A stretch of 64,000 bases of DNA from the NCBI RefSeq assembly GCF_007995015.1, contig NZ_VORB01000002.1, positions 1 through 64,000 of the forward strand, given 5' to 3'. This stretch comes from Luteibaculum oceani. Lineage in GTDB: Bacteria > Bacteroidota > Bacteroidia > Flavobacteriales_D > Luteibaculaceae. The notes below the pieces were generated by a model that saw only the letters and a list, made by a program, of their open reading frames with translations, ran no database searches and was not told the origin of the DNA. Of the stretch, positions 4,441 through 44,902 are shown one piece after another. The position numbers and the translations under genes are program-made. Each line of letters opens with the position of its first letter. Position 1 is the stretch's first letter.

Positions 4441-4510
4441 CGCAAAAGGGCAAAGCCTTAATTGTTACCAGCAATAATCCAACCAACCTCTACCCGCCAG
4501 CCAATTGAAA

Positions 4511-16500: not shown

Positions 16501-19180
16501 CCGTAACTCCTGGACCTATGCCCAACTTGCAGCGTATACCGGAAGAATTGCAGGAAAGCTGCAAAGCCTTGGTTTAAAGAAAAATGCTAAGGTGGCAATG
16601 ATGATGGAGCGGTCTGCTGCCTTAATTGCGGTGCAAATGGGAATTCTTAGGGCAGGCTATACCTACGTTTATTTAGATCCAAAATTACCCGAAGACCGCA
16701 TTGCTTACATTTTAAGTGACTGTAATGCTGGTTTGTTGGTTAGTCCCACTCCAGTTGCAGGGGTTGAGTGTGAACAACTTTCCTTTGATGCGCTCAATGC
16801 TCCTTGTGATGTAACCATTAAAAGCAACTCATCGCAAGATGATTTAGCCTACATCATATACACCTCAGGAACTACCGGAATGCCAAAAGGTGTTGCGGTG
16901 GAGCACAAATCCGTTTTAAATCTGGCGCATTGGTTCTCCAACGCGTATAATCTAAGGCAGCACCGAAATCTTATTCAAATGACGAACATGAGTTTCGATG
17001 TTGCGGTTGAGGAAACCTTGGTGCCCTTGATGTATGGAGCCTGTGTCCACATTGCGTCTAGGGAGGTTGTATTGGATAAAAAAGCGTTTTATGAGTTTGT
17101 GGAAAGCCGACAAATTGATATCGCTCAATTTGTACCCTCTACCCTGCAAAAGTTGGTCGTAGAGAACGAAAAAATGTCCTCTTTAAAGATTTTAATTTGC
17201 GGAGGCGAGCGCTTAAACAAGGAATTAAAAACGCAAGTATTAAATAAGGGCTACGAGTTGTATAACCACTATGGCCCCACAGAGACCACAGTAGATTCTC
17301 TAGTTTGGAAGTGCTCTGGACACAACGCAAGGTTAGTGCATAGAAGGGTAGGGGCAAATGCGCTTAAAAATCCTAACAAGATTGCAGTAGCCACTAAGAA
17401 CGATCAAATATCCTACAGCGAGCTTCAATTTAAATCCGAGCAATTAGCTGCCTTTTTACAACAAAATGGGGTGGGCAAAGGAGATGTGGTAGCAATTTCG
17501 TTGGAGCGAAGCGTAGACTTGGTTGTAAGTATCTTAGGAGTAATGATTGCAGGTGGAGCCTATTTACCTATTGATGCGACCGCACCAAAGGGCAGAGCCG
17601 AATACATGCTTAAAGACAGCAAAGCCAAGTTTATCATCGCTAGACCTGGTATTCACGAAAACCTAGAAGTAAGAACAAGCCGATTAAATATAGAAGATCC
17701 TAAACTTTTTAATCCGGAACAGCCTTTCTCCCCGGTTGGAATTACAACAGAGGATTTGGCCTATGTTATCTACACTTCGGGTTCTACAGGAAATCCTAAA
17801 GGCGTACAAATAGAGCATGCTTCGTTAAACAATTTCTTGCAAACCACCATGGCACAATATGCCAATGTCTTTAGTGATGAAGATGTTTGTTTGAGTTTAA
17901 CTAACATTTCCTTCGATGTTAGTGTCTGCGAGATTTTTATTTCCCTAGTGCATGGCGCAAAATTGTTCATGTTGGATAGGTTGGATATTTATGACATAAA
18001 CCTTTTAGCTCATACTATAATTGAGCAGGAGGTGAGTTTTGCTTACATCCCCCCCTCATTATTGCAAGATGTACATGCCAAACTGTTACCTCACAAGGGG
18101 AATCTAAAGTTTAATAAGTTGATGGTAGGGGTAGAACCTATTCGAGATCATGTGCTTCAATCCTTTAAGGCACTCCATCCGAATATGGTGGTTATGAATA
18201 GCTATGGACCAACTGAATCTACCATTTATTGTACCTCTTTAGATGTTCCCGTGCAGGAACCTAAGGGAGACATTGTTCCTATTGGTCGTCCAATATTCAA
18301 TACCCAGATCTACATCTTAAACGAGTTTGATCAGTTACAACCGGTGGGGGTACCTGGCGAGTTATGTATTTCTGGAGAAGGATTGGCCAGAGGTTATTTA
18401 AATCAGCCAGAATTAACCGCTGAGAAATTTACGATGAACCCGATTACTAAAAACGAGCGAATGTACCGAACAGGCGATATCGCGCGGTGGCTTCCGGACG
18501 GAACTATTGAGTTTGTGGGGAGAAAGGATTTTCAGGTAAAAATTCGCGGATTTAGAATAGAACCTGGCGAAATTGAGAACCAAATGCTGGCCATTCCAAA
18601 GATTAAACAAGTTTTGGTATTGGCCTTAGACGATAAGGAGGAGAAATATCTTTGTGCGTATTATACGGCAAAAGAGGAGCTGAAACAGGAAGAAATAAAG
18701 GCTCATTTATCGGCCTCACTTCCCGATTACATGATCCCAGAGCACTTTGTGGCTTTGGATTATTTTCCATTAACCAAAAACGAGAAGGTAGATCGCAAGG
18801 CATTACCAGTACCAGAGCGAAACCTAATGCATAGTGAGGAGGATTACGTAGCACCAAATACGGATACCGAAAAACTAATTCAATCTTGGTGGGAAGAAAC
18901 CTTAGAAACCAAGCCAATTGGTATTAACATGAATTTCTTCGAACTAGGAGGAAACTCGCTTAAAATCATTGGACTTTTTGGTAAAATGAAAGAGCAGTTC
19001 CCAAATCAAATTGCGGTAAACGACCTATTCGATAAACCCACAATTCAGCTTCAAGCAGCACATATCGATGCCCTAAAGCAGAAGAATGCGGAGTCAACAA
19101 AAGAGCAAAACGGTAACTCCGAGGAGCAAGAGCAACAATTACAATCCCAAAACAAGCGTCTGAGACGTGTAGAATTTTAA
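4511..19180 (+). CDS. Four-module non-ribosomal peptide synthetase (NRPS1)
   Basis: A 4889-aa assembly-line enzyme. Order: C1 (HHVLMDG at 131)-A1-T1 (Ser983); C2 (HHLISDG at 1163)-C3 (HHMLLDG at 1608)-A2-T2 (Ser2447); C4 (HHIISDG near 2626)-A3-T3 (Ser3476); C5 (HHIICDG at 3654)-truncated A4-A5-T4 (Ser4816); then a charged, Gln/Glu-rich 40-residue tail that may dock to the next protein. Specificity residues read by eye: A1 DSATLGVVTK (unassigned), A2 DVGEIGSIDK (canonical ornithine), A3 DFWNIGMVHK (canonical threonine), A4 DVEQIGHVD (incomplete domain), A5 DVCYMGSIYK (unassigned). It opens with a C domain and no loading A-T, so the first residue is probably N-acylated or receives a chain in trans. 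ATG 4511 is preferred to the TTG at 4505. It is the first gene of the operon, 8 nt before the next. No E or MT domain is present. Confidence 0.97.
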   Translation: MKTLTSNQKAIWFDQLVHYNSSLYNLGGYVRIAGDLNLNLLEKAISETIASADIFQQSIQLVEGEPQFGSEIDSSAFQVHDLRGTHKTESELKAQLKNEHKIPLNWNEGELFSFGLFILSDDLSYWHIKVHHVLMDGWAVSVLVKKASENYNQLLLKGTLSSPLPLFEAAVREDLEYVESDEYENDKRYWLKQFETLPSSVKFPEPTPAAPEIEGSFRKSFSLSWKSYSALNELARAHNQSTFHLFLAALYAYFSKSYQIDDLCMGTPILNRPSKAFKNTVGLFTGISPLRIQGPKHLSISEIGQNLRKQLRQNFRHQRFPLSHLVQELKKTYPKTNRLFDAVLSFEKHDYQVRFGAATTQQEALPHGDEQTPLALYVREYGAGEPVTIDLDFRGEIWDDFHSSQFVNQFQSVLARMDQLIEQPISELNLLTPDDLDQQLKEWNYADNALGKTVVEMFSNAVDQFPNQLAVADGEEEISYEVLDKRSNQLSHLLAANHISKGDIVGIRTDRKVHTIISILAILKAGGAYLPIDSNYPVERQRYMVEDAQIKSLITAGDEQVDLGVPALKIQDEVLDSYPTTALNLTINPSDSAYLIYTSGSTGQPKGVVVTHRGTVNQSLEQVKAFEVSPSDRCMLFSSLSFDSSVAEIFMALFSGSSLHICPEDTRKNPSDFEAFLAQERISYLTVTPSFLSLLRPEAFKGVRALLTGGEAVKRKDIRRIAQYCRHFNVYGPTENSVTSTFYEFDERIPTGINMPIGKPVPNTQVYILDADLSLLPIGSVGEIYLGGAQLSKGYIHRPEITAERFIASPFAKGEKLYKTGDLGKFLPDGNIVYLGRTDNQIKLRGFRIEIGEIENGLIEHPEISNAGVLLKTDHSGEGYLLAFYVSNKELSETELKEHLGAFLPEFMVPSFFHRLEKMPLSVNGKVDRDVLHKIEYRKLSNPKECQNLETDFEFWIAEKWKTLLGVEIVGKESNFFQLGGHSLKAAKFIGLLEKEQGIKVPLAVLFEHPQLGSLAQTLENAAPVLQKNTPKNLGAIKTIALTPSQKNIWLAEQLNEGAAAFNIPVGIVIKGDLDTHLFQQSLNKLVQKHEVLRAYFIEADGELEQGFSENVEVAVNLHNDEELSALVKQYIHYKFDLTQAPLLKAGLVPLASGEHLFLLSIHHLISDGWSMNLFLEDLESLYRGEEGVKIEAGFKEYAFALNSGIENKANALAWKYWQNQLKGLRPLELPYDGSPHTAKSFEGKVQRLTLSATINEKIKRICEQHQLSRFMLVQAITKLMLHKLCKSTDFALGAPVSGRETVQYHNTMGLFVQTIPFRTKIDAEAPVGDFLQQIKTETLDALKYQDFPVDALPEANRPAFNVLVSMDDQNLNKSSSWYHHDHPLIKALELDYGVSKFDLSFSFQEVAGELQTHLIYNTHLFEDQTARLMLKYWENVLLEVLSKDAFECTILDLKLADGSEAETLKYLGLPETQYERAFPLTAVQRDMYLTSELAPNEGALRTLGYLFVREKIDAPIWQQALEDLTKQEAILRTTTVEKNGKVYQAVRRSKKTNFKYIDFSSQNLLESDVKSLVIEYCEISQDVHQELVNHWLFKLNDTCYVSVLSAHHMLLDGSSFSYFYELLDGFYTARAKQQEHVKNPYTSPFYRFANDIEHRFDRPQMINFWEQHLKGVEPLNYRGVVQRNAEYRTDHINMSSELSDGVKKFCKENRIRPDLYFKGLVALIVRGVCATDTDFCLRENLFGRSKSNLNTLGCFMSTKPLRIYQDECDSDKEFADFCKAIKKEGIRTKDAGNISVSAQNKIIGNEPLSFYFNFQKFLEPDSALKMSYLYQVFHVMKEQVEIRVGENNTGFDFRLDYDLSVFNGRDFMQRLIYLSEQLVNGVTTIGALKWTLPEEERELDLWAQNPADFNFQSITSLYHRNLDSVKNSRALVYKDQAWTYGELEKLSNQLAHYLANSGVNKGDRIALICDRGPWMLTGVLACLKSGAVYIPIAADLPEQRIAYILEDAQPKLVLSDVEDWRNTFEASSFDVVLQEKEDFVPVALNPEDSAYIIYTSGTTGVPKGVEVQHKALSNISQSWTQTYGLDKERPKLLQLASFSFDVCTGDFVRSLANGGNLIICPSDIRLDPASMYQLLEEHEINVFEGTPGLVEPLMRYVSENGKSLSYLKLLIIGSDTLQIATYKWLRAEFSKDIRIINSYGVTEACIDSACFEDEIPEKLYCKTTPIGKPLHNSKMLVLDYRKQKVPVGIPGTLYIGGTGLAKGYVNQDLLTRERFVQINDEKYYATGDQVRWLPNGDVEFLERTDNQVKVRGYRIELAEIEYQLNRISEIEKAIVSAPKLDGDRQLVAYLKAAKEIKPQRIKEVLSAMLPEYMVPQHFIFIETFPLTPNGKIDYPALPGIEQSELSSTFVEPRNDLEEQMCAIWASVLNRERVGIADNFFELGGHSLRATELVSRIKKELKVKLPLNRIFNAPRIIDFVLDWPDKSKNDLGLAKAPVRRFYPLSSAQLRTYLLQAMDLEATTYNMPAGFELKGKLDLEKLKQAFFQLSVLHEVLRTSFHLENGLPVQQVHDQIEIQIDRSYEKNAQLNEVLQTFVQPFDLSKAPLFRLHVNSFTATHHLLMMDIHHIISDGVTVQVLVRDLMNLYAGISRSKPTFQYKDFAWFQHQEDNAQQQVLRNYWLSQFSDGVPTLDFPSSFPRPKSLSGKGKRHTEIWDEAVLQRLRSFSKSHNCTLQQVLNAAWIVLVHRYTGKSDLVIGQPVSGRTLSETQDMAGMFVNTLAHRYQINPNDDFLSFIKRASDRQLEGLDHQDFPFEKLVDALKLQHDRSRHPIFDVAFSYLKPDIQEFKLSGLDIKQLKLEHRSAKFDLLAEVVEMNNHLQLELEYSTDLFDAEFMEQVARDYQSLLCELIAAPEQQVGTIPFLNQEEIERIINATDYTNVAFDHGELIHTYFEKQVAQYPDKTALVYQGETLSYRDLNKRAELIASHLPQGGERIALLFDKGFEMIASILAVLKSGNCYVPIDPNYPEERINFTIKDSEASLLLCDHAILGNYGTKLIATSALKERGNNPLDYAISSDSEAYVIYTSGSTGKPKGVPITHQNVSRLFFNQEQLFDFSEKDVWTLFHSYCFDFSVWEMYGALLFGGKLIIVDKALAQDSGAFASVVEKEKVSVLNQTPSAFFNFADFAIAKKLNLSHLKQVIFGGEALAVKQLKPWFNQFPDVQLINMYGITETTVHVTYKEIGKAEIEAGWSNIGKPIPTLGMLILDNQLNIVPEGVVGEMCIYGAGLSKGYLNRPKLTKEKFTHITAPVSRYIYRSGDLARLKKNGEVEYIGRADSQVKIRGYRIEIGEINNVLLNLDQIKQSTVLAHKDARGESYLAAYYIGEISEQEVKRSLSAALPAHMIPSWFVPMDVFPLTKNGKLDVKAFPIPHLDRLTTENIVLPHTPTEKQLQSIWSEVLGIEEFGADQGFFEVGGHSLAAAKVVGKIHESFGKQIELSFLFANPSIQRLAQKLDEQQSAKAKRIPKVAKSEFYPCSSAEQRIFVIHQMHTEDTTYNIPGVFEVDGALNLERLQKAVNDLVERHDVLRTNFFMQNNAVHRTVHDQREVPISVKSSERALSEEIGEFVRPFDLEKEALFRIQITYIGQHIYLLFDIHHIICDGISMEILISELNDLYQGTRLSPLDIGYKDFASWQKQWVKGADYQKEKAYWLEQFEEEVPVLNLPTDFVRPAVKSNEGARYHFQIPAELGNKIRTLAKEVEASPFTVFLTGLKLLLAKYSGQTDLIIGTPVSGRTHPELDAIMGMMVNTLAIRSQLNWNTPLIKALEEVRLSSYNALSNQNYPFEDLLDALNVHRDMSRNPLFDVMFSYQHDGTETIRFSESNFTPINFEHPISKMDLTLDVAGKDNGGFNLSIEYATKLFKKSTIERLSQHFTYLLEQFVITPNQALASFELPTNVEKRQLIYGFNNTLMDFRRSVCIGGMFEESALKYPNDYAVVDDRNSWTYAQLAAYTGRIAGKLQSLGLKKNAKVAMMMERSAALIAVQMGILRAGYTYVYLDPKLPEDRIAYILSDCNAGLLVSPTPVAGVECEQLSFDALNAPCDVTIKSNSSQDDLAYIIYTSGTTGMPKGVAVEHKSVLNLAHWFSNAYNLRQHRNLIQMTNMSFDVAVEETLVPLMYGACVHIASREVVLDKKAFYEFVESRQIDIAQFVPSTLQKLVVENEKMSSLKILICGGERLNKELKTQVLNKGYELYNHYGPTETTVDSLVWKCSGHNARLVHRRVGANALKNPNKIAVATKNDQISYSELQFKSEQLAAFLQQNGVGKGDVVAISLERSVDLVVSILGVMIAGGAYLPIDATAPKGRAEYMLKDSKAKFIIARPGIHENLEVRTSRLNIEDPKLFNPEQPFSPVGITTEDLAYVIYTSGSTGNPKGVQIEHASLNNFLQTTMAQYANVFSDEDVCLSLTNISFDVSVCEIFISLVHGAKLFMLDRLDIYDINLLAHTIIEQEVSFAYIPPSLLQDVHAKLLPHKGNLKFNKLMVGVEPIRDHVLQSFKALHPNMVVMNSYGPTESTIYCTSLDVPVQEPKGDIVPIGRPIFNTQIYILNEFDQLQPVGVPGELCISGEGLARGYLNQPELTAEKFTMNPITKNERMYRTGDIARWLPDGTIEFVGRKDFQVKIRGFRIEPGEIENQMLAIPKIKQVLVLALDDKEEKYLCAYYTAKEELKQEEIKAHLSASLPDYMIPEHFVALDYFPLTKNEKVDRKALPVPERNLMHSEEDYVAPNTDTEKLIQSWWEETLETKPIGINMNFFELGGNSLKIIGLFGKMKEQFPNQIAVNDLFDKPTIQLQAAHIDALKQKNAESTKEQNGNSEEQEQQLQSQNKRLRRVEF
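8935..10215 (+). other. Second of two tandem condensation-type domains (C3) in NRPS1 module 2
   Basis: After a complete C2 domain the protein does not pass to an A domain but to a second C-fold of about 420 residues. It starts at PLTAVQRDMYL and keeps the catalytic HHMLLDG. It is clearly more divergent than the other C domains (for example LRENLFGRSKSNLNTLGCFM where others have the GxPxxGR region). It has no E-domain signature (DSVSW). It lies directly before the ornithine-type A2. Confidence 0.8.
16432..17320 (+). other. Truncated adenylation domain (A4) fused to a complete A5
   Basis: This 295-residue segment carries adenylation core motifs up to A5: YIIYTSGTTGMPKG, FDVAVEE and NHYGPTETTVD. 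It then breaks off at LVWKC, and at about residue 4274 the start of a new, complete A domain follows (LVHRRVGANALKNPNKIAV). Motifs A6-A10, the carrier domain and a C domain are all missing between the two. The frame is continuous, so this is a fusion and not a frameshift. Confidence 0.88.
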
Positions 19181-19188
19181 AATATATC

Positions 19189-20028
19189 ATGAAAAAACTA
19201 GCAGTTATAGGAGCTGGGGTAATGGGACAGGGTGTCTCTTACCAATTTGCAAAATTTGGATATCAGGTAACACTTATCGATCTGTCTGATGAAGTGCTGG
19301 AGGATGCAAAAAAGAAAATTAAAAATATCGAGCGCTTGGATAAACTGTTGCATAAGTCGAAAAGCACTTATGTAGCGCTTGATCAAATTACATGTACTAC
19401 GGATTTATCGTCCATTTCATCTGCCGATTTTATCATTGAAAACGTTACCGAAAACATAAAAATTAAAGAAACCCTTTATCAAGAGATCGCCAAGTACATC
19501 TCGAATGATGCCCTCCTTGCGGTTAATACATCGGCAGTTTCCATAACTCGTTTGGCTTCTTTTCTTCCTCAACCAAAGAATATAATGGGTATACACTTTA
19601 TGAACCCCGTGCATTTAAAACCAACTGTTGAGGTTATCAGAGGTTTCCATACAACCGAGGAAACGATTAACACAACCCAAACCCTGCTTCAATCTGTTGA
19701 AATGGAGGGGGTAGTGGTAAACGATTATCCAGGGTTTATTTCCAATCGAGTTTTAATGCTAACGGTAAATGAGGCCATATTCTCCCTGCAAGATGGCGTG
19801 GCAGATGCAAAATCGATAGATAAAATATTTAAGCAGTGCTTTGGCCATACCATGGGGCCATTAGAAACGGCCGATCTTATCGGTTTAGACACCATCCTTT
19901 ACACACTAGATGTGCTAGTAGAAAGCTATCAGGATACAAAATTTAGACCCGCACCACTTTTAAAAAAAATGGTAGACGCCGGTTTACATGGCCGCAAGAG
20001 CGGAGAAGGATTTTTTAAATACAATTAG
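19189..20028 (+). CDS. 3-hydroxyacyl-CoA dehydrogenase-like enzyme (FkbK type)
   Basis: This 279-aa NAD-dependent dehydrogenase has an N-terminal Rossmann motif, GAGVMGQG (residue 8 on), an acidic residue ending beta2 (TLIDLS), the catalytic His136 in GIHFMNPVH, and the typical C-terminal helical domain (FISNRVLMLTVNEA). In the known methoxymalonyl and hydroxymalonyl pathways (FkbK of FK520, ZmaG of zwittermicin) such an enzyme oxidises glyceryl-ACP to the 2-hydroxy-3-oxo form. It sits 8 nt after NRPS1 and next to the ACP, acyl-CoA dehydrogenase and FkbH-like genes, which supports that role over beta-oxidation. The assignment to hydroxymalonyl-ACP is inference from context; the enzyme class is certain. 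Confidence 0.92.
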   Translation: MKKLAVIGAGVMGQGVSYQFAKFGYQVTLIDLSDEVLEDAKKKIKNIERLDKLLHKSKSTYVALDQITCTTDLSSISSADFIIENVTENIKIKETLYQEIAKYISNDALLAVNTSAVSITRLASFLPQPKNIMGIHFMNPVHLKPTVEVIRGFHTTEETINTTQTLLQSVEMEGVVVNDYPGFISNRVLMLTVNEAIFSLQDGVADAKSIDKIFKQCFGHTMGPLETADLIGLDTILYTLDVLVESYQDTKFRPAPLLKKMVDAGLHGRKSGEGFFKYN

Positions 20029-20053: not shown

Positions 20054-20305
20054 ATGTCAACACCAATTATTGATGTTCAACAAACGGTAAAAACCTTCCT
20101 ACAGAAAAGAATAGGAGAAGATATTTCATTCGAAGTTACAGACGATATTTTCGAGTTGGGTCTGGTAAACTCATTGTTCGCTTTAGAGCTTGTGGTTTTT
20201 TTGGAGAATACTTTTGGTTTTACCGTGGAAAACGAGGATCTCGACTTGAACAATTTTAGTTCTGTGGCCAACATTGAAAAATTCGTTGTTCGCAAAAAAG
20301 CATAA
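20054..20305 (+). CDS. Stand-alone acyl carrier protein (FkbJ type)
   Basis: This 83-aa carrier protein has its phosphopantetheine Ser40 in LGLVNSLFALELV. The GLVNSLFA wording is typical of the discrete ACPs that carry glyceryl-, hydroxymalonyl- or methoxymalonyl units (FkbJ and ZmaD types), rather than the DSL of fatty-acid ACPs. The upstream in-frame ATG at 19988 would overlap the previous gene and add a sequence unlike any ACP, so ATG 20054 is chosen. It should be loaded by the FkbH-like protein and activated by the PPTase at the operon end. It lies 25 nt after the dehydrogenase and 5 nt before the acyl-CoA dehydrogenase. Confidence 0.93.
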   Translation: MSTPIIDVQQTVKTFLQKRIGEDISFEVTDDIFELGLVNSLFALELVVFLENTFGFTVENEDLDLNNFSSVANIEKFVVRKKA

Positions 20306-20310
20306 TTCCT

Positions 20311-21462
20311 ATGTCATTTCAATTAACGGATGAACAGGAGCATTTTCGCAAATCGGTCCAGGACTTTGTGAAGTCGGAAATTCTGCCCTATGCAGAGCAG
20401 TGGGATAGACAAGAGAGTACTCCTCGTGAAATCGTAAAAAAGCTGAGCGATAAAGGCTTGCTTTGTCCTACCATTCCCAAAAAGTACGGGGGATTAGAAT
20501 TAGATCAGGTGCGCTATGGTATTCTTCATGAGGAAATAGGCAGAGGCTGTTCGTCGGTTCGTTCTTTACTTACGGTACATTCTTCTCTTACGGCCGAAAC
20601 CATTTCAAGATGGGGGAATGAGGCCCAAAAGCAGCAATGGTTACCTAAATTGTGTAAGGGAGAAAAGGTGGCTGCCTTTGGCTTATCGGAACCCACAACG
20701 GGTAGCGATGCACAAAACGTGCAAACTACATATACCCAGGTTGATGGCGGTTATGTATTAAACGGCCACAAAAAGTGGATTACGTTCTCTCAAATGGCCG
20801 ATTTATTTGTAATCGTTGCTAAGGGAGACCAAGGGGTTTGTGCCTTTCTAGTGGAGAGTGTTACGGAAGGATGCACGGTAAATCCGTTAACCGGAATGCT
20901 GGGAACCAAGGCTTCAATGCTTGGAGAAATCATACTTGAGGATTGCTTTGTACCCGAAGCCCATCTGCTGGGACGTCCAGGTTTTGGTTTTGCCCAAATT
21001 GTAAATACCGCATTGGATAACGGTAGATTTAGTGTGGCCTGTGGTTCGCTTGGAATTGCTCGTGCCTGTTTAGAAGATAGCGTTGCCTATGCTAAAGAGC
21101 GTCAACAATTTGGATCTCCTATAAAGGATCACCAGTTGATTAAACAGAAAATTACAAATATGATAACCGAGGTAAAGGCTGCCCGATTATTGTGTTATAA
21201 TGCGGCACACCTAAGAGCTACAAAAAACCCCGATTCTTTTATTCAGACCACCGTAGCGAAATATTATACCACACAAGCTGCGAACAGAATTGCCAGCGAG
21301 GCGGTGCAGCTTCATGGAGCAGCTGGATGCCACGATAGCAGACCCATTCAGCGTTATTTCCGAGATGCTAAGATCATGGAGATTATCGAAGGCTCCTCGG
21401 AAATTCAACAAATTTTAATTGCCAATCAAGGACTAGCTAGTTTGTCCTCTATACTTTCCTAA
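20311..21462 (+). CDS. Acyl-CoA (acyl-ACP) dehydrogenase, FkbI type
   Basis: This 383-aa flavoprotein is of full acyl-CoA dehydrogenase length. The FAD-binding signature FGLSEPTTGSDA, the WITF segment, the C-terminal QLHGAAG and RDAKIMEIIEGSSEIQ with the catalytic-base Glu360 are all present. In the FkbI and ZmaE route this family oxidises the ACP-bound three-carbon unit to the malonyl level, in concert with the FkbK-type dehydrogenase. Its stop codon is followed directly by the ATG of the KASIII-like gene, with no intervening base, so translation is likely coupled. The specific substrate is inferred from neighbours. Confidence 0.92.
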   Translation: MSFQLTDEQEHFRKSVQDFVKSEILPYAEQWDRQESTPREIVKKLSDKGLLCPTIPKKYGGLELDQVRYGILHEEIGRGCSSVRSLLTVHSSLTAETISRWGNEAQKQQWLPKLCKGEKVAAFGLSEPTTGSDAQNVQTTYTQVDGGYVLNGHKKWITFSQMADLFVIVAKGDQGVCAFLVESVTEGCTVNPLTGMLGTKASMLGEIILEDCFVPEAHLLGRPGFGFAQIVNTALDNGRFSVACGSLGIARACLEDSVAYAKERQQFGSPIKDHQLIKQKITNMITEVKAARLLCYNAAHLRATKNPDSFIQTTVAKYYTTQAANRIASEAVQLHGAAGCHDSRPIQRYFRDAKIMEIIEGSSEIQQILIANQGLASLSSILS

Positions 21463-22431
21463 ATGATCGGAATAAAATCCATACAATCCTTTACACCAGG
21501 CACTCCAATTGCCGTTCATGAATCCAATGAGTTTAAAAACCTCAATGCTGTTGAGCGTGAATATTTCGAAACCGTTGGTATTGACACGGTTTACGATTCG
21601 GGAAACCTGCAAAGCTATGATTTGGCCAAAGGTGCTAGTGAACAACTCTTAGAACAAAACGGACTGGAGGGAAAAGATTTAGATTTTATCATCTACATCC
21701 AAAGCAGAACCCCAGAGCATTTTATTTCTTCCGAAGCAACGAGATTACAGCACGATCTTGGAGCAAATTCTGCCATGGCTTTTGCAATTTCTAATTTGGG
21801 TTGTGCCGATTCTTCTATGGCCATTAAGTTGGCTATGGACCTTTTAAAAGCCAATAAAAAGGCGAAAAACGTGCTCATTTGTTACGGTAACAAGTTGTAC
21901 TCTAATTATCGTTTTAGATATCCTGTTACGGTTATGGGGGATGGAGGAATTGCCGCGCTTATTGGAAGAACGGAGAACAACCAAATCCTAGACATTCAAA
22001 TGCAATCTAATGGTGCGTATTGGGATTTATTTAAAATGGAATATCGAGGTAAAAAGGATGAGGAGTTTAAGGAGACCTGCTCCAATTTGCGCAAATATGG
22101 ATTTGAGTTGGCGATAGAAAGTAAGAACAGGTTTCAGGAATTAAACCAAAAAGTTTTAGACCATAACGGTCTTACATCCTCTGAAATAGACCATTACATG
22201 CTTCAAAATATATCGAGCAGGGCCTATGAATATTACGAGCAAGCTTTCGATATAAAGCTCTCTCCCATTTGCCAGATGAACCTGAGCAAATATGGACATC
22301 TTGGATCTGGAGATGTGTTTCTGAATTTTAAAACTGGTGTGGATTCGGGGCTTTTTCAGGAAGGACAAAACGTATTAATTATGAATAATAGCCCCGCGGC
22401 TGCCTGGAGTACCGTACTCCTCGAAATTTAA
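21463..22431 (+). CDS. KASIII-like protein, candidate trans-acyltransferase
   Basis: This 322-aa thiolase-fold protein is of FabH length. The nucleophile Cys114 lies in NLGCADSS, at the same place as in FabH. The other two FabH active-site residues are not conserved: the HQAN motif is replaced by MLQNISS, and the Asn of YGNT is replaced by His in YGHLGSGD. Loss or swap of these residues is a feature of KASIII relatives that transfer acyl groups instead of condensing them (the CerJ/ChlB3 kind). In this operon the PKS lacks a working AT. The protein could therefore move hydroxymalonyl from its ACP to the PKS, or it could condense glyceryl-ACP as in tetronate pathways. The first is favoured because FkbI- and FkbK-type genes are present. 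The family call is firm; the role is inference. Confidence 0.88.
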   Translation: MIGIKSIQSFTPGTPIAVHESNEFKNLNAVEREYFETVGIDTVYDSGNLQSYDLAKGASEQLLEQNGLEGKDLDFIIYIQSRTPEHFISSEATRLQHDLGANSAMAFAISNLGCADSSMAIKLAMDLLKANKKAKNVLICYGNKLYSNYRFRYPVTVMGDGGIAALIGRTENNQILDIQMQSNGAYWDLFKMEYRGKKDEEFKETCSNLRKYGFELAIESKNRFQELNQKVLDHNGLTSSEIDHYMLQNISSRAYEYYEQAFDIKLSPICQMNLSKYGHLGSGDVFLNFKTGVDSGLFQEGQNVLIMNNSPAAAWSTVLLEI

Positions 22432-22441
22432 AATCGTGCAC

Positions 22442-23503
22442 ATGAAAACACCAAGCTCATCAACCAAAAAACCAGTGATCAAATGTGTCGTTTGGGACCT
22501 GGATAACACCTTGTGGAACGGCGTGCTTTTGGAGCATGATGAACTGCAATTGCGAGATGGAATAAAAGAAATTATTCAAACTCTAGACCAATGGGGAATA
22601 ATCAATAGTATTTCTAGTAAAAATAATTTTGATGATGCCAAGGCGAAGTTGGAATCATACGGATTGTGGGAATACTTTCTGTACCCACAAATTTCATGGG
22701 ATTTAAAATCCAATGCTATTTCTACGATACAGGAAAAATTAAACATAGGATTCGATGCAATCGCATTTATTGATGATCAAGCATTTGAGCGCGAAGAAGT
22801 GAATTTCGTTCACCATAAGGTACACTGCTACGATATAGATATTATACCTCAAATACTCCATCAGTTTAAGCCTCGGTTTATTACACCAGAATCTTCGTTG
22901 AGGAGAAAAATGTATCTAGATGATGAGGTTCGTAACAACGAGGAAAAAGAAATAGGTAATAACCAAGCATTTCTAAAATCCTTAGACCTAGATTTTCGTA
23001 TTACACGCGCTACTGTTGACGATTTACAGCGCGTTGAGGAACTGACCATTAGAACTAATCAGTTAAATGCCACTGGGTATTCCTACTCCTACGATGAACT
23101 TGAAACTTTAATTCATTCTCCAAACCATATGTTGCTTGTTGCCGAGCTTACCGATCGATATGGTAGCTACGGAAAAATAGGTGTTGCAATGGCTGAGTTT
23201 AACCAAGGAATCTGGAATTTAAAGCTTTTGTTAATGAGCTGCCGGGTGATGTCGCGTGGTGTGGGAGGCGTTTTGCTTTCGTATATCATGCACAAAGCAA
23301 AGTCCCAAAATACGAGACTGCAAGCCGAATTCCTACCCACGGATAGAAACAGACTGATGTATGTAACCTACAAATTCTCGGGTTTTACAGAGGCTGGGAA
23401 GTTAGAAAATGGAGGAGTAGTACTGGAACATAACCTAGAGAAGATTCCAGCATACCCCGAATATATAAAAGTGCAAACTCCTGATTTACAAGCTACATCA
23501 TGA
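22442..23503 (+). CDS. FkbH-like HAD protein, glyceryl-ACP formation
   Basis: This 353-aa protein has the two-part FkbH build. The N-terminal HAD phosphatase-like domain carries WDLDNTLWNG near residue 16 and FIDDQAFEREE near residue 108. The C-terminal GNAT-like domain has RTNQLNATG and the Cys267 motif LLMSCRVMSRG. FkbH proteins take 1,3-bisphosphoglycerate, remove a phosphate and load the glyceryl group on an ACP, the first step of the hydroxymalonyl-ACP route. ATG 22442 is chosen over the in-frame GTG 22436; it lies 10 nt after the KASIII-like gene. The stop overlaps the ATG of the PKS gene by 4 nt. No O-methyltransferase gene (FkbG) is nearby, so the unit should stay as hydroxymalonyl. 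Confidence 0.93.
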   Translation: MKTPSSSTKKPVIKCVVWDLDNTLWNGVLLEHDELQLRDGIKEIIQTLDQWGIINSISSKNNFDDAKAKLESYGLWEYFLYPQISWDLKSNAISTIQEKLNIGFDAIAFIDDQAFEREEVNFVHHKVHCYDIDIIPQILHQFKPRFITPESSLRRKMYLDDEVRNNEEKEIGNNQAFLKSLDLDFRITRATVDDLQRVEELTIRTNQLNATGYSYSYDELETLIHSPNHMLLVAELTDRYGSYGKIGVAMAEFNQGIWNLKLLLMSCRVMSRGVGGVLLSYIMHKAKSQNTRLQAEFLPTDRNRLMYVTYKFSGFTEAGKLENGGVVLEHNLEKIPAYPEYIKVQTPDLQATS

Positions 23504-26500
23504 AAGATATTGCAATAATTGGAATGGCTGGAAGGTTTCCGGAGGCCAAAAACATTCAGGAATTTCGACAAAATTTAATCGAGGGAGTTGATAGCGTTAG
23601 AGAACCCGATCACCATCGATTAGCCAATACCAGTTGTGATTTATCAAAATCCTATATGCCACTTGGATTTGTCGACGATATAGATCGTTTTGATCACAAA
23701 TTCTTTAATATCTCCAAGTCTGAGGCCATTCACATGGATCCACATCAACGGTTGTTGTTAGAAGTGGCGTACGAGGCGTTGGAGAACACTGGATATCCGA
23801 TGGAGCATTTCCACGGTTCAGAAACAGCAGTTTTCATAGGAGATACCGATCAGGAGTACTATAGGTTGGCTACAGTTTTCGACCCGACCCTGGTAACTGG
23901 AAGTTCAAGCGCAACCACGGCAGGCCGCATATCTCGACACTTTAATTTAAGAGGAGTTGCAACCATGTTGGATACTGCTTGTTCCTCTTCCTTATTGGCC
24001 GTGCACATGGGCTGTAAGGAAATTATAAACGGAGATGCATCCATGAGTTTAGCTTGTGGAGTGCGACTCATTATTCAACCCGAGGAAAAAAAGGAGGGCG
24101 TTGATTTAGGCATAATGTCTTCCGATGGAAAAACGAGAAGCTTTTCCGAGGATGCCAATGGAACGGGTGCAGGTGAGGCCGTTGGAGCTGTATTGCTTAA
24201 ATCCTTGGAAAAAGCCGAAGCTGATGGGGATATCATTTATGCAGTTATTAAGGGTTCTGCGGCCAATCAAGACGCTCAGTTATCGGGTAGTTTAACCGCC
24301 CCCAGTTCTCAAGCGCAGGCAGAAGTCATAAAAAAAGCTTGGGACAAGGCACAGATAGATCCGACCAACATAGATTTTATTGAAACTCATGGGTCGGGAA
24401 CAAAATTAGGCGACCCTATTGAGGTTGGAGGAATAGATCAGGCCTTTGCTGATATGGATAAACCGCTAAACAGCGTAAAAATCTCCTCTGTAAAGTCAAA
24501 TATAGCTCATACCGGCGGTGCTGCAGGGATCAGTGGCCTGATTAAAGCGGTTTTAGCGCTGCAGTTTGGTGAGCATTACCCCTCTTTGCACTACCATAAA
24601 CCCAATCCTTTTATCAATTTCGATGCGTCGGTTTGCCAGGTGCAAACAAAGTACGAAAAGTGGGAGGTGTCTCAAAACCTTCGCCAGTGTGGCGTTAGCT
24701 CTTTCGGTCTCAGCGGCACCAACGTTCACGTGGTTGTTGAACAAGCACCTGAAATAAAATGGCCGAAAGCCAAAAATTGTATTCTTGCTTTTTCGGCTAA
24801 AAGCCAAGAAAATTTAATGCTTTTGGATGAGGAAATCAGAGCCCGCCTTGGGGATAAATCTCCAGAAGAAAAAACAGCTGCAGCATATACAGCTTGTACG
24901 GCGCGAACCCAATTGCCAACTAAAGGTTATTTTACCATCTCTGCTACGGGAACTCTTTCAGAATCAAGATATGCTCCTGAGGATCAACTTCCGGCAGAAA
25001 AAATTCTCTTTCTCTTTTCCCCTGATTCTGAAATAACGTCAACTGCTTTTCAACAGCTATGTTCAACTGAAGAAGAAATTTCGATGCTGGCGCAAAAAGC
25101 AATGAAGGTAGTGGGTGAACTTAACCACAATTCAAGAAGGTTTGTAATGCAGCTTGGGCTTTTTAATGCGCTAAAAAGCCGCGCGATTTTATCTGAGAAT
25201 CTACTAGGACTTGGAACTGGAGATTTAGTGGTGGCTTGTATTTTGGAAGAAATGACTTTTGAAGAAGCAATTTCAGAAGCCCACGGATTGGAAGCATGGG
25301 AAGCGCAAAACCTGAAAAAGAAACTTAGATCTCTGATACAAAGAGAAACCGAAGCGCAGAAAACCCTTTTTGTTGAATTGGGAACTACAGGTTGCTTGAG
25401 CAGGCAATTGAATGAATTACCCTATCCCGACAAAGATGAGTCATTGGACCTGATTTGGTTGGACGATGAAGCGTCAGTGGATGAGTTAATGGGGAAAATT
25501 TTCCTGGCTGGTTATCCCGTGAAATGGACAGAAGTATACCATCAACCGCTGCAGAAATATCCCCTTCCTTCTACGCCTTTAGAAAAAATAAGGTGCTGGC
25601 TCAAGCCGGTAAGCACAGGGCAGCATAAAAAGGAAATAGACTCGGTAGATGAAGCTTCCATTGAACTACAACCAAAGGAAGACTTAAGTGCTGTAAATGA
25701 AGAAAAACATAGGGATTTAATACCGGAGTCTTGGACGAAAACGGAACAAAAGGTGGCCGCCATTTGGATTGAGGTTTTAAGTCTGGACTCCATCAGCTTA
25801 ACAGACGATTTCTTTGAATTGGGAGGGCATTCGCTAATGGCCACTCGGGTAATTTCGCGAATAGAAAGTACCTATGGAATTAAGCTAGTTTTTAAAGATA
25901 TATTCACGTTTGCAACGGTAAAAACGCTTGCTCAGGGGATAGATGAGTTGCTGGAATCGGGACAAAAATCCAACCACAAACACCCTATGACAAAGCAACC
26001 GAGACGGCAGGAGTACCCCTTATCTGAAGCCCAAAGAAGACTTTGGCAAATTCATGAAATGAGCCAAGGCAGTAACTTGGCCTATAATCTTCCTGCAGCA
26101 CTAAAAATTAAAGGAAAGTTTGACCTCAATAAAGCGGAGGAAACCCTCAGATTATTGGTGGCAAGACATGATTCCCTTCGCACCATTTTTGACGAAGATA
26201 AAGGGACGCCATTTCAGCGTGTATTAACGGAAGTTGATTTTCAAATGGAAAAGTCTTCTGGGTCCCTCCAAGATTTGGAAAAAATAAAGTCGGATTTTCT
26301 AAGACCCTTCGATCTTAAAAACGCTCCGTTATGGCGAGTGAGGTGTGTGGAAGTGGCTGAAAATGAATATCTGCTGCTATTCGATATGCATCATATTATC
26401 TCTGACGGGGTATCCTTAGGAATGATTACTTCGGAATTTCTAGAGGCATATCAAGGCAATGAGCTGAATGAATTGGAGTTTCAGTATAGCGATTACGCCC

Positions 26501-27321
26501 TTTGGCAGGAGGCTGCTTTCAGTAATGGTTATATGCAGCAGCAAGAAAGCTATTGGACATCGGTTTTTGAACGTGCTCCAGAGCTTTTGGCATTGCCTTA
26601 TGATTTTAAATCAGAAACTTCAGTTGCTCCAAAGGGGGCGACCTATTCATTTGAAATATCCGAAGAACAGGTTAAGCAGATTAAAAAAACCAGTAATGAA
26701 ATGGGGGGGACTCCATTTATGCATTTACTCGCTTGTTACCATTTAATGCTTAGCAAGTATAGTGGCCAACAAGACTTTACAGTTGGTGTCCCTATTGCAG
26801 GAAGGTCGCAGCAGGCGATGGAGAAAATAGTTGGGATGTTTGTAAACACCCTCCCTTTGAGAAATAGCACGGCGGAAACGGGAAATTTTCAAGCGTTTTT
26901 CGAAACAGTTAAAGTAAACGCGCTCCGAGCTTTTGAGCATCAGGACTACCCATTCGAAAGGGTGGTAGAAAAACTTGGTATGCAAAATGCAAAACTATTC
27001 AATACCCTTTTTGTGTTGCAAAACTTGGGGAAAAAGAAGGTTGAATTGGAGGATATTGAGATTTCATCTTTGCCTTTTTCCAATCAAACGGCTCAATTCG
27101 ATTTGACCATGGAAATCAATGAAAATGGTGCTAATTACCTAGTAAACCTCTATTACAACGCCGAATTATTTGATTCGGTTACAATGGAGCTTATGGCCCA
27201 GAAGTACCTGAAGATTGTTGATCAGACGGTAGATAGCGTGGCCATTGAGATTCATGAAATAGGAGAAGAAAGCAATGAAATATCTGGGAATAGTGCTCCT
27301 GATTTCGAACTAAACTTTTAA
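23500..27321 (+). CDS. PKS-NRPS hybrid protein: KS, inactive AT remnant, T, C
   Basis: This is a 1273-aa protein. The ketosynthase (residues 1 to about 420) keeps its triad: Cys161 in DTACSSS, His297 in ETHGSGT and His337 in NIAHTGG. Residues about 424-703 align with an acyltransferase but are degenerate and short. A carrier domain follows (Ser778 in LGGHSL), then a complete C domain (PLSEAQRRLW near 842, HHIISDG at 964). There is no KR, DH, MT or working AT. The KS should extend the chain from NRPS1 with a two-carbon unit, most likely hydroxymalonyl supplied in trans; without a KR the product would be an alpha-hydroxy-beta-keto thioester. The terminal C domain would join this to the amino acid on the first module of NRPS2, whose own C domain is incomplete. 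The gene starts inside the FkbH-like stop and ends 10 nt before NRPS2. Confidence 0.95.
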   Translation: MKDIAIIGMAGRFPEAKNIQEFRQNLIEGVDSVREPDHHRLANTSCDLSKSYMPLGFVDDIDRFDHKFFNISKSEAIHMDPHQRLLLEVAYEALENTGYPMEHFHGSETAVFIGDTDQEYYRLATVFDPTLVTGSSSATTAGRISRHFNLRGVATMLDTACSSSLLAVHMGCKEIINGDASMSLACGVRLIIQPEEKKEGVDLGIMSSDGKTRSFSEDANGTGAGEAVGAVLLKSLEKAEADGDIIYAVIKGSAANQDAQLSGSLTAPSSQAQAEVIKKAWDKAQIDPTNIDFIETHGSGTKLGDPIEVGGIDQAFADMDKPLNSVKISSVKSNIAHTGGAAGISGLIKAVLALQFGEHYPSLHYHKPNPFINFDASVCQVQTKYEKWEVSQNLRQCGVSSFGLSGTNVHVVVEQAPEIKWPKAKNCILAFSAKSQENLMLLDEEIRARLGDKSPEEKTAAAYTACTARTQLPTKGYFTISATGTLSESRYAPEDQLPAEKILFLFSPDSEITSTAFQQLCSTEEEISMLAQKAMKVVGELNHNSRRFVMQLGLFNALKSRAILSENLLGLGTGDLVVACILEEMTFEEAISEAHGLEAWEAQNLKKKLRSLIQRETEAQKTLFVELGTTGCLSRQLNELPYPDKDESLDLIWLDDEASVDELMGKIFLAGYPVKWTEVYHQPLQKYPLPSTPLEKIRCWLKPVSTGQHKKEIDSVDEASIELQPKEDLSAVNEEKHRDLIPESWTKTEQKVAAIWIEVLSLDSISLTDDFFELGGHSLMATRVISRIESTYGIKLVFKDIFTFATVKTLAQGIDELLESGQKSNHKHPMTKQPRRQEYPLSEAQRRLWQIHEMSQGSNLAYNLPAALKIKGKFDLNKAEETLRLLVARHDSLRTIFDEDKGTPFQRVLTEVDFQMEKSSGSLQDLEKIKSDFLRPFDLKNAPLWRVRCVEVAENEYLLLFDMHHIISDGVSLGMITSEFLEAYQGNELNELEFQYSDYALWQEAAFSNGYMQQQESYWTSVFERAPELLALPYDFKSETSVAPKGATYSFEISEEQVKQIKKTSNEMGGTPFMHLLACYHLMLSKYSGQQDFTVGVPIAGRSQQAMEKIVGMFVNTLPLRNSTAETGNFQAFFETVKVNALRAFEHQDYPFERVVEKLGMQNAKLFNTLFVLQNLGKKKVELEDIEISSLPFSNQTAQFDLTMEINENGANYLVNLYYNAELFDSVTMELMAQKYLKIVDQTVDSVAIEIHEIGEESNEISGNSAPDFELNF
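24770..25610 (+). other. Degenerate acyltransferase (pseudo-AT) in the PKS
   Basis: The order of AT landmarks is still visible but each is broken. LFLFSPDS (near residue 503) stands where the FPGQG motif belongs. GLGTGDLVVA (570-579) stands where GHSLGEYAAA belongs, so the catalytic Ser is Gly572. VELGTTG (near 625) replaces VEIGPG. The segment holding the catalytic His is missing, and the whole region is only about 280 residues including the linker. It cannot act as an acyltransferase and may survive as a structural spacer. Confidence 0.85.
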
Positions 27322-27331
27322 TAACCGAAGC

Positions 27332-30300
27332 ATGCGCGAGGACCTACTGCAATCTAAAAAAGCTGTCGATTATTGGTTCAATAAACTCAAAACCCCTATC
27401 GACCCCTTAAGATTAGGAGTTTATACCAATGAGGATAGAACCAGGATAGAACATAAGGAGAAACTTAATTTGGCCATTGGCAAGTTGATAGATCAGCGAA
27501 GCAATAACAAGGATTTTTCGAAATTCATCTTGTTTCAAGCTCCCCTGTTTCTTTTGGGTTCTAAACTGTCGAACTCCGACTTTATTCGAAGCCTTTCTCC
27601 TGCATTGAACGACAATAACCCCAATGGTTTTCTTTTTACGGAGGCCGAAATTTCGGGGGATATGAAGGTGAAAGAATTGTTCAGACATTTGCAAGAGGAC
27701 CTAAAAAAAGCATGGTCTCAGCAATCGGCTGCTGTTGCTGAGCTCAAAACAAAGTTAGAAGCCAATAACTGCGGGTTCGAAGACAATTTTCATTTTGGGT
27801 ATGCGTATGAAAATCTGGCGCCGATTAATGAAACATCCAACTTTGATGTGCAGGTGGCTAGCGAAGGAGGAAACTACTTTATTACGTTTAGGGCCTTTAC
27901 TCAAAATCACAATGAATTTGTTTTAAAGGAGTTGGCATGGTCTTATCAGGAGTTACTGGGTGCTATGCTCCAAAACCCCGAAGCTTCTTTGGGATCTTTA
28001 TCCTTGCTCAGTAAGGATCAATTGAGCCACCTAGATGCATTTAATGAAACCACAAGTAATCTGCCATTTCGATCATTATTAGACTACTTTTTAGAGCAGG
28101 CAGAAAAAACACCAGAAAAAATAGCTCTGGAGGATGCAGTCTGTACCCTAACTTTTGAGCAAACGCTTCGGCAAATTCAGATCCTGCAGAATGAAATGGT
28201 GGCAAGTGATGTTAAGGCTGGGGATGTTGTTGCCGTTTGTGCTCCGAGGTCTGTTCTACAACCCTTAACTCTGTTGGCATGCCAGTCGGTTGGCGCCATC
28301 TATTTACCTATAGACTTCAACAATCCACCGGATAGAACCAATTTTATCGTAGAAGATGCCAATACTAAGCTGGTTATCTCTTCAAAGGATTTTAAAGTAG
28401 ATGTTGACGCTTCCGTTTACCAATGGTCTTTAAACAAATCGCTACCAGAAAAAGAATACCCCTTTGAGCCCATTGCACCTGAAGCCCCCTGTTATATAAT
28501 TTATACGTCGGGCTCTACGGGAAAACCTAAGGGAGTAGTAATCCGCCACGATGCACTTGGAAACTATATTCATAGTATACAAGATCGGCACGACGAGTGG
28601 TTTGCAGAGGAAGATCGTTGCTTAAGTATGGCCAATCCAGCCTTTGATGTTGCCTTATACGAGTATGCTCTTGCTTTTCACACTGGGTGCACGCTTTATG
28701 TTTTAGAGGAAGAACGCGTGGTGAACCCAGAAAAAGTAGCCGAATGTTTACGAAATGAAAAAATCGCGTTTTGTTATCTGCCGCCTATTTATTTGCAGGA
28801 AATTGGTGAGATAATAGCCAATAATCCGCAAGATTTCGTTTTAAAAAAATTGCACGTTGGTTTAGAGGCCATCCTGGATGAAAAACTGCAAAGATTTTTA
28901 GATGCACTACCACAATTAGAGATTTTAAATGGATATGGTCCCAGTGAAATAACAGTGGGATCTAATTATTTTAGGGTTACTTCTCAAGAACCCAAAAAAC
29001 GCGTAGTACCTATTGGTACAGCCATTTTAAATACGCAACTATTTGTATTAGATCGGCACGGACAAAGGGCTCCGGTTGGTGTTGCAGGAGAGCTCTTCGT
29101 CGGGGGAATAGGTTTGGCTATTGAATATTTGAATAGACCCGAATTAACTCGGGAAAAATTCGCTATTCATAAGCACATTCATCCTCATAAAATTTATGCT
29201 ACCGGCGATCGAGTTGTGATGGACAAAGAGGGGAATGTTCATTTTATTGGGAGAATAGATAATCAGCTTAAAATTAGAGGATACCGGGTAGAGCCTGGTG
29301 AAATAGAAAAGGTGTTGATGCAACACGAGGCGGTTTCCGAAGCTCTTGTTGTAGCAGCAAGAAAAGATGGCCAGTTGGAGTTATGTGCCTACTTGGTAAG
29401 TACAGAAACATCACAAACGGTTTTACGTGAATATTTGGGCAGTACCTTACCTGCATATATGATTCCATCGAGTTGGAATTTTATCCCAAGAATCCCTTTA
29501 ACTAGAAATGGAAAACCGGATAGGAAGAATCTCCCTGAGCCTAAATTTTTTATTGAATCTGCCCAAGTTGCCACAGCAGAGACCGAGTTACAAAAACAAA
29601 TTCTAGCTTCGTTCGAAGCGGTTCTCCATTGTAAAATGGGTATTAACGATTCCTTCTTTGATTATGGAGGAAACTCGCTTAAAGCGGCAAAATTGGTGGC
29701 TCACCTTTTTGACAATCACAAGATATCGGTTCCATTTAGATCTGTTTTTCAGTTTTATACGGTTGCAGGATTGGCGGCCTCATTGAGTGCTGATGACCAT
29801 TCTAAATCTATTTATGAAATAGAGAAAGCACCTTCCCTAGCATACTACCCATTATCTCATGCCCAAAAGCGCATGTATTTAACCCAGGCTGTAGATCCTA
29901 AGAGCACCATTTATAACATGCCTGGAGCCTTCTTTATTAACGGAAGGGTAGATTTTGAACGGTTCGAGGATGCCTTTTTAAACCTGATTCAAAGACACGA
30001 AGGACTGCGGACTAGGTTTGTGCAAAAGGAAGGGAGTACTGTTCAAGAAATCATTGATAAAAACGAATTTAAGATCGAGTGGTTAAGCCGTAACGAGGAA
30101 ACTATTGAAGAAGTCTTAACCCGCTTTATACGCCCCTTTGATCTGGCCTCTGGAAATTTACTGAGAATTGGATGTTGCAAATGGTCTACAGATAAATATC
30201 TGATGCTGATAGATATGCATCATATTGTTTCTGATGGAGTTTCAGCCAGTCAGTTTTTACGCGAATTTGATGCCATATACAAAGGCAAACACCTGAAAAC

Positions 30301-39313: not shown

Positions 39314-40003
39314 ATGCCAAAAATTATATGTCTTCCTTTTGCTGGAGCCTCTAAGTATGCGTACAACCAGTTTAATAATATGGGTGTTGGTTCCTTAGAT
39401 TTTATTGGATTAGATCTACCTGGAAGAGGAATGCGTTTTAATGAGCCTTTGTTGAGGTCGATAGACGAAATGACCCATGATCTGTATAATCAAATACTTC
39501 CCTTTACTAACGAACCTTATTACCTGTTTGGCCACAGTATGGGAGCAATTCTAGGTCAGCGCATATGCGAAAAATTGCACGAGCTCGATAAGCCCTTACC
39601 AAAAAAACTACTGCTATCAGGAAGAGGGGGGCCAGATACGGAGATTACCCACAGAGAATGGCATAAATTACCCCCGAATGATTTCAAGAAAAAGGTATTT
39701 GAGCTAGGCGGTAGCCCTAAGGAAGTATTAGATAATCCTGAGTTAATGGAGTTAATGGAACCCATTTTAAGAGCTGATTTTGAGGCGGTGGAGACTTACC
39801 TTTATCCGAAGATTAACAAATTAGATATCCCAGTTTCTGTTTACTACGGATCGCATGATAAGTGTACTAAAGAGGAGTGCGAAAATTGGCAGGTTATCTC
39901 GGATAAAAAAATAACCTTAACTGAAATAAGTGGCAACCACTTTTTTATTTTCTCTAATGCTCAGCAATTTTTGAACTGCCTTAAACAAGATATTGATGCA
40001 TGA
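39314..40003 (+). CDS. Type II thioesterase
   Basis: A 229-aa alpha/beta hydrolase of the GrsT/SrfAD editing type. The N-terminus has LPFAGASKYAY, then LDLPGRGMR, the nucleophile motif FGHSMGA (Ser near residue 75) and a late GNHFFIF with the catalytic His. Such enzymes clear wrongly loaded or misprimed carrier domains. It lies 4 nt after the transporter and overlaps the PPTase start by 4 nt. Both point to its being part of the operon. Confidence 0.95.
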   Translation: MPKIICLPFAGASKYAYNQFNNMGVGSLDFIGLDLPGRGMRFNEPLLRSIDEMTHDLYNQILPFTNEPYYLFGHSMGAILGQRICEKLHELDKPLPKKLLLSGRGGPDTEITHREWHKLPPNDFKKKVFELGGSPKEVLDNPELMELMEPILRADFEAVETYLYPKINKLDIPVSVYYGSHDKCTKEECENWQVISDKKITLTEISGNHFFIFSNAQQFLNCLKQDIDA

Positions 40004-40596
40004 TCTTTAAGCATGCTTTTAATAGAGATAAGTGGAGTGATCAGGAAACGAACTCTCGATTAACGGCTCTGCCTCTTGAAATAAAACAAAAAGCCTTGCG
40101 ATACAAAAAATGGCAAGACCGCCAGGCTTGCATAATATCGCGAGAGTTGCTCCAAGCATCTCTTCAAGAGTTTTATGGAAATAATGATGATTATTTGGCC
40201 AGAGTACAGGTGGATAGATTTGGAAAACCCTTTTTAAACGAGGAAATCAATTTTAGTATTTCCCATACCGAAGAATTGGTTGTTTGTGCGGTTGCAAAAG
40301 ATGTAATTGGGGTAGATGTAGAAAAAATAAGGGAAGTAGAATTTATAGATTTTCAGCAGTTTTTTACCACCCAGGAATGGAATGAGATCCAGTGTAGTGA
40401 GGAGCCAAAACACACTTTTTACAGGAAGTGGACCATAAAAGAGGCCGTGTTGAAAGCCGATGGTAGGGGATTGAGTGTGCCACTGAATAAAGTTGCTATT
40501 AGCAACCATTCCGCAAATCTCGATGGTAAATTTTTTCATGTTGAAACTCGCTTCTTATCTGAGGATCATCTTTGTGCGGTTGCTTACCAGTCCTAA
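40000..40596 (+). CDS. Sfp-type 4'-phosphopantetheinyl transferase
   Basis: A 198-aa enzyme of the Sfp/Gsp type. It has the CoA- and metal-binding motif VIGVDVEKIRE near residue 104 and FYRKWTIKEAVLKADGRGL near 139-157, plus NFSISHTEE near 83. It converts the apo carrier domains of the NRPS and PKS proteins and the stand-alone ACP to their active forms. It is the last gene of the operon; its ATG overlaps the thioesterase stop (ATGA). Confidence 0.95.
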   Translation: MIFKHAFNRDKWSDQETNSRLTALPLEIKQKALRYKKWQDRQACIISRELLQASLQEFYGNNDDYLARVQVDRFGKPFLNEEINFSISHTEELVVCAVAKDVIGVDVEKIREVEFIDFQQFFTTQEWNEIQCSEEPKHTFYRKWTIKEAVLKADGRGLSVPLNKVAISNHSANLDGKFFHVETRFLSEDHLCAVAYQS

Positions 40597-44762: not shown

Positions 44763-44902
44763 TTTAATTCCATTTTAGGAATACTAAATATTTTCAATCA
44801 TCTGAATTTTATAAGGTTTCGATCCTTTTTTCTTTTATTCATAGACTGTTTAGTGATTTTTGTAATAAATGGAATATCTTGCCTCCTTTAAATTCAAATT
44901 CC

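Follow-up and report, generated by a model that had tools for sequence, protein, structure and literature searches.

Introduction

ChlB3 of chlorothricin biosynthesis (PDB 7eqi) and CerJ of cervimycin biosynthesis (3s3l) both have the KASIII fold and carry the catalytic triads Cys113/His296/Asp301 in ChlB3 and Cys116, His295 and an Asp in CerJ (PMC9573744), the activity of the former being abolished by C113A and that of the latter by mutation of C116 and H295 (PMC9573744). ChlB3 transfers its acyl group from one ACP to another, but it carries 6-methylsalicylyl, and CerJ places malonyl onto a sugar, so that neither handles a PKS extender unit. Two further KASIII-like transferases belong to assembly lines, SfaN (sanglifehrin A) and AfcL (AFC-BC11), the latter with a Cys/His/Asp set; their tasks are to load a starter and to release a chain, and neither supplies an AT-less module with extender units. 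The title of the sanglifehrin paper (cited in PMC12186527) concerns loading of a (2S)-2-ethylmalonamyl starter. ACP-bound rare units are brought to modules by the discrete trans-ATs ZmaF, OzmC and ClbG (PMC6164871, PMC5923317), of which ZmaF bears an AT-type GHSxG-like motif (PMC4207774). OzmC and ClbG have the AT fold. In zwittermicin biosynthesis hydroxymalonyl-ACP is recognised by the built-in ZmaA-AT (4qbu), which then loads the unit onto a downstream ACP (PMC4207774).

Here we analyse a KASIII-like protein encoded in a 64,000-nucleotide stretch of Luteibaculum oceani DNA (contig NZ_VORB01000002.1, positions 1 to 64,000; hereafter the window). We consider it likely that this protein is a dedicated trans-acyltransferase, which would move hydroxymalonyl from a free ACP to the T domain of a module that has lost its own AT, a role like the ACP-to-ACP transfer of ChlB3; substrate, donor, acceptor, direction and the transfer activity itself are all inferred, without biochemistry.

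The Luteibaculum oceani cluster and its AT-less module

The window cluster runs in the order NRPS, cassette, KS-[AT remnant]-T-C, NRPS with TE, MFS transporter, thioesterase and PPTase. The upstream NRPS (4505-19180, + strand, as are all features given here; five C and five A domains) is followed by a 3-hydroxyacyl-CoA-dehydrogenase-like (3HCDH-like) gene for an FkbK-type step (19189-20028; 3HCDH_N, 2.6e-52), a stand-alone ACP with its phosphopantetheine Ser40 at 20171, the proposed donor (20054-20305), and an acyl-CoA-dehydrogenase-like (ACAD) gene for an FkbI/ZmaE-type step (20311-21462). The ORF of the KASIII-like protein, the proposed trans-acyltransferase (21463-22431; 322 aa, ATG start), directly abuts the ACAD stop at 21462, and 4 bp downstream of it begins the FkbH-like glyceryl transferase/phosphatase gene (22436-23503; TIGR01686 247 bits, cut-off 146.65), which overlaps the PKS start. 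The hybrid module protein KS-[AT remnant]-T-C that follows (23500-27321; 1273 aa) has the KS Cys/His/His, and precedes the downstream NRPS with three C and three A domains and a TE (27332-38047). FkbH, ACP, 3HCDH-like and ACAD-like genes together make a full hydroxymalonyl-ACP set; in a search for an O-methyltransferase to go with this cassette, no methyltransferase family was matched among the cluster ORFs scanned.

The loss of the AT from this module is plain. PF00698 has no match in the KS-to-T stretch at E<=10, and in the region where an AT would lie (24775-25719) the GHSxG position reads GLGTGDL (25207-25227). The T domain (25747-25935) retains its GGHS serine and is the proposed acceptor. 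The AF2 model of the KS-to-T segment (pLDDT 84.2, pTM 0.64) partially matches truncated KS-AT didomains, with ZmaA-AT at rank 9 and TM by query of 0.26-0.51 over the 50 best rows; the counterpart of the built-in ZmaA-AT is in the window only a segment partly resembling it in predicted fold, most probably the remnant of a collapsed AT. Nor was a dedicated AT located elsewhere in the Luteibaculum genome, a candidate explanation we reject, as the single PF00698 protein found is FabD, outside the cluster; the Streptomyces bikiniensis genome likewise has one PF00698 protein only. Both the placement of the KASIII-like gene between the acyl-CoA dehydrogenase and FkbH-like genes and the AT-less state of the neighbouring PKS module had been proposed in a first-pass annotation made from sequence alone, and both held.

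Fold and active site of the KASIII-like protein

Pfam places both ACP_syn_III and ACP_syn_III_C above cut-off in the 322-residue protein, and the NCBIfam KASIII models fall far under theirs (fabH TIGR00747 81.5 bits, cut-off 292.1). An AF2 model (pLDDT 93.1, pTM 0.92, from a 20-sequence alignment) retrieves FabH enzymes at the top of a Foldseek search, and NatS, DpsC and ChlB3 first with VIA-align (Z 33.3-33.5), many other KASIII-fold chains lying within 1-2 Z. The PF00698/AT fold and a GHSxG serine, sought in the same protein, are absent, the Pfam matches being KASIII/thiolase-type and the model a KASIII fold, which distinguishes it from ZmaF, OzmC and ClbG.

Alignment to FabH structures in the PDB identifies Cys114 (21802-21804) as the nucleophile, and puts Gln248 at the His of HQAN and His279 at the Asn of YGNT. 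Conservation was counted over 58 family members, comprising the window protein, 43 of tier 1 and 14 of tier 2 (about 220-310 bits) or intermediate; as L022 and L078 are of equal length with identical KS, and so probably one contig, the true number may be 57. Cys114 is invariant (58/58), as are His279 and Asp284 in the His-x4-Asp motif (22297-22314), in exact register with the ChlB3 triad: GHLGSGD in the window protein aligns with GHLGASD of ChlB3, in which His296 and Asp301 were placed by counting along the chain. The two proteins are about 20% identical. The first-pass annotation's reading that the nucleophile is kept and the FabH His and Asn partners are absent is thus upheld, though the loss of the FabH His varies within the family, since residue 248 (22204-22209 together with Asn249) is Gln in 48, His in nine and Pro in one, Asn249 being present in all 58; it had overlooked the invariant Asp284, five residues past His279, and with it the match to ChlB3. 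Arg82 (21706-21708), also 58/58, has no counterpart in the aligned FabH, ChlB3 and DpsC sequences, among which the NNSPVAAW segment is similarly family-specific. This arginine is, by inference, possibly the residue that binds a free carboxylate.

A Cys-His-Asp triad cannot alone prove transfer, because the condensing enzyme DpsC (GHLGGGD at this position) and a tetronate-like KASIII from Burkholderia (L182) have His-x4-Asp too, and we dropped it as sufficient evidence. A condensing role of the FabH kind was separately rejected on the residues, the NCBIfam cut-offs and the intact KS domains beside the protein.

Phylogeny and distribution

In two trees the family members group together (100/100) on a long branch, distinct from FabH. 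The neighbour nearest to this clade varies: ChlB3 joins it at 89/51 in one tree and does not in the other. The trees bear on a rival explanation, that the protein is a tetronate-type condensing KASIII that joins glyceryl- or hydroxymalonyl-ACP to the chain by C-C or C-C/C-O bond formation. FkbH, ACP and KASIII also constitute the gene set of tetronate pathways. Such an FkbH/ACP/KASIII set is seen at L182, whose KASIII keeps the Cys and a GH-x4-D motif (GHMGAAD), and the His-x4-Asp of the condensing DpsC is a further point in favour. Against it, two oxidising genes (ACAD and 3HCDH) are present that would be superfluous in a glyceryl-ACP route; the Cys-His-His of the KS is kept in 53/53 full KS domains beside the KASIII-like protein, and condensation therefore needs no additional enzyme; and a condensing role would leave unexplained why the AT is absent exactly where the protein occurs. 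Grouping with tetronate KASIII enzymes had been named in the first-pass annotation as one outcome that would refute transfer. Only L182, one long-branched row called tetronate-like from its gene context, was available for this comparison, and the family clade excludes it at 100/100. We regard tetronate-type condensation as very improbable, and retain transfer to the T domain as the preferred reading.

A scan of GTDB contigs gave 74 pattern matches, which reduced to 19 loci, with relatives in Chitinophaga (61%), a MAG (53%) and actinomycetes (37-40%). On a Streptomyces californicus plasmid a 39% homologue lies in an operon KASIII-ACP-ACAD-FkbH; an NRPS comes next, with a KS module lacking an AT and a gene of the 3HCDH-like type. 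KASIII-like gene, cassette, AT-less KS module and NRPS recur together in Chitinophaga, the MAG and actinomycetes, which span two phyla and show two different gene orders. Whole-genome searches (E<=1e-60) found the family in 31/392 Streptomyces genomes, about 8%, and in 3/244 genomes of the taxonomic family to which the Chitinophaga locus belongs. It is rare in the phylum of Luteibaculum, where a scan of 395 genomes at E<=1e-25 returned one, Luteibaculum's own, and no close relatives were found in viral contigs. Among tier-2 loci FkbH and ACAD are present in 11/13, and their AT-less modules include KS-T-reductase, KS-KR-MT-T-C and KS-T-C-A-T-TE.

Other KASIII-like proteins were encountered beside these. 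Three tier-2 loci encode a second, distant one (L100 3530-5524, -; L101 13214-16522, +; L103 3451-4476, -) with Cys and His-x4-Asp, in a clade of its own (100/100). At three FkbH loci where the stretch read contains no KS, a DpsC/ChlB3-like KASIII is encoded in which Ser replaces Cys and His-x4-Asp is present (L149 3071-4351, L158 3305-4336, L160 15456-16718).

The KASIII-like protein and AT domains nearly exclude each other

PF00698 found no AT in six tier-1 modules scanned at E<=10 (the window included), or in six further modules, five of tier 2 and one of tier 1, at 0.01. We also built a local AT HMM from 15 intact ATs, which recovers them in leave-one-out at 141-435 bits, and with this model at E<=10 no AT was detected in 56/57 loci with the KASIII-like protein. 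The sole exception, L105, has its AT in a separate cis-AT protein, KS-AT-DH-KR-ACP. An AT hidden inside the module is rejected on the PF00698 scans and the local HMM together.

As a control, all FkbH places scoring >=230 bits in 246 Streptomyces genomes were collected (n=51), of which 12 lay in KASIII-like loci already known and the other 39 were all read. One of these (L146) proved to hold a distant family member, and is AT-less too; at 25 of the remaining 38 a KS lies within the stretch read, and all of those 25 loci also have an AT. Among loci with FkbH, ACAD and KS, the AT is missing from 44/45 with the KASIII-like protein and present in 25/25 without it (Fisher p 4e-18, the rows not being independent), a count that leaves out four KASIII-like loci with no KS in the stretch (L025, L088, L109, L111) and 13 KS-less control loci. 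Near mutual exclusion is shown by these counts. On the KS tree, from which the partial KS of L105 was excluded, the AT/KASIII-like label needs three changes, two of them forced by starred branches, and only two to three phylogenetically independent pairs can be drawn, which leaves a paired test without power. As the loci are related and the label changes only three times, the association reflects few events (two to three).

In two of the controls, L127 and L128, no AT adjoins the KS and the AT is encoded by an ORF of its own, an AT-fold solution to the same problem. Their FkbH proteins are among the closest to that of the window (about 51% identity).

The exclusion also bears on a second rival, in which FabD loads malonyl and the KASIII-like protein either edits, removing incorrect acyl groups by hydrolysis, or has the product as its acyl acceptor, in the manner of CerJ. 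In its favour, the Luteibaculum genome encodes a FabD, for which malonyl loading is conceivable; hydrolysis of SNAC thioesters is known for ChlB3, and CerJ attaches its acyl group to the hydroxyl of a sugar (PMC9573744). However, if malonyl were loaded, nothing would use the hydroxymalonyl made by the adjoining cassette, and the protein is absent from AT-bearing FkbH loci although editing would be needed there equally. What the loci have in common, we infer, is NRPS/PKS genes and not one acylated scaffold. This alternative is also held to be most unlikely, and loading of hydroxymalonyl by the KASIII-like protein remains the explanation we favour.

Loci that fit less well

Seven tier-1 KS-bearing loci (L027, L090, L091, L093, L094, L095, L098) have neither FkbH nor ACAD in the DNA read, L079 has ACAD without FkbH, and at L092 the cassette is situated farther upstream. 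Five of the seven lie in three genomes with more than one family member, some of them adjoining an AT-less KS, namely G503 (L091, L093), G515 (L090, L094) and G803 (L095), each of which carries a cassette-bearing tier-2 locus elsewhere, and for this reason one cassette may possibly serve several modules. In a further genome, G857 (L098), a second KASIII-like gene adjoins an ACP.

The seven loci are a point for a third rival, in which there is no transfer, the KS taking hydroxymalonyl straight from the stand-alone ACP and the KASIII-like protein serving another step. KS domains can sometimes accept extender units from separate ACPs. Against this stands the serine kept in the T domain of the window module; moreover some loader seems to be required, because L127 and L128, which lack both an adjoining AT and the KASIII-like protein, have a discrete AT. 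We give direct uptake by the KS little credence relative to loading of the T domain by the KASIII-like protein. One family member, at L111 (9099-10448, +; 219 bits), has no KS or FkbH match in about 30 kb on each side (about 60 kb) and is not explained by AT replacement.

Proposed mechanism and significance

In the assembly we propose, by inference from established FkbH-type pathways, the four cassette genes would place hydroxymalonyl on the free ACP. From this ACP the unit would be taken over as a thioester by Cys114, with His279 and Asp284 as the activating pair, and would then pass to the T-domain phosphopantetheine of KS-[AT remnant]-T-C, for condensation by the module's own KS with the peptidyl chain arriving from upstream. 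The KASIII-like protein would in this way substitute for the decayed AT domain. Acyl transfer from the stand-alone ACP to the PKS carrier, the central suggestion of the first-pass annotation, is supported by the triad, the co-occurrence with the cassette, the exclusion of ATs and the intact KS, the activity itself remaining inferred. Its further claim of a new use of the fold was too wide as put, because ChlB3, acting from ACP to ACP, and SfaN, loading a PKS starter (PMC12186527), are precedents.

In the open-access literature searched (subscription journals were mostly outside its scope) we found no KASIII-like protein that loads hydroxymalonyl or any other extender unit. What appears to be new is that these features are combined: an extender unit would be loaded by a protein of KASIII fold taking the place of an AT that has decayed, its function being inferred. 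A bolder reading, towards which the evidence leans without settling it, is that ATs gave way to an undescribed branch of the KASIII fold dedicated to loading an ACP-bound extender unit, and that AT decay came afterwards; this would have happened in no fewer than two independent lineages of KS, in two phyla, and would make the branch a second, unrelated fold among the extender-supplying trans-acyltransferases of modular PKS. The choice of extender unit in these systems is usually ascribed to AT-fold enzymes, and a KASIII-fold hydroxymalonyl loader, if confirmed, would be a second fold with this function. It would also allow correct annotation of AT-less modules with an FkbH cassette in the roughly 8% of sampled Streptomyces genomes that carry the family, and would offer an orthogonal part with which to install alpha-hydroxy groups in engineered polyketide-peptides.

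Product and surroundings of the cluster

YM-47141 and YM-47142 are vicinal-tricarbonyl elastase inhibitors of a Flexibacter (PMC7291377). Hydroxymalonyl extension could yield vicinal tricarbonyls such as these. It is possible that the window cluster makes a product of the YM-47141 kind, a lead that rests on general chemistry only and with no domain count matched. Downstream of the NRPS at 27332-38047, which has a TE of its own, lie genes for a free-standing thioesterase and a phosphopantetheinyl transferase (39314-40596). The cluster is flanked on either side by proteins with a type IX secretion C-terminal sorting domain, at 1465-2052 and 44879-47596 of the window.
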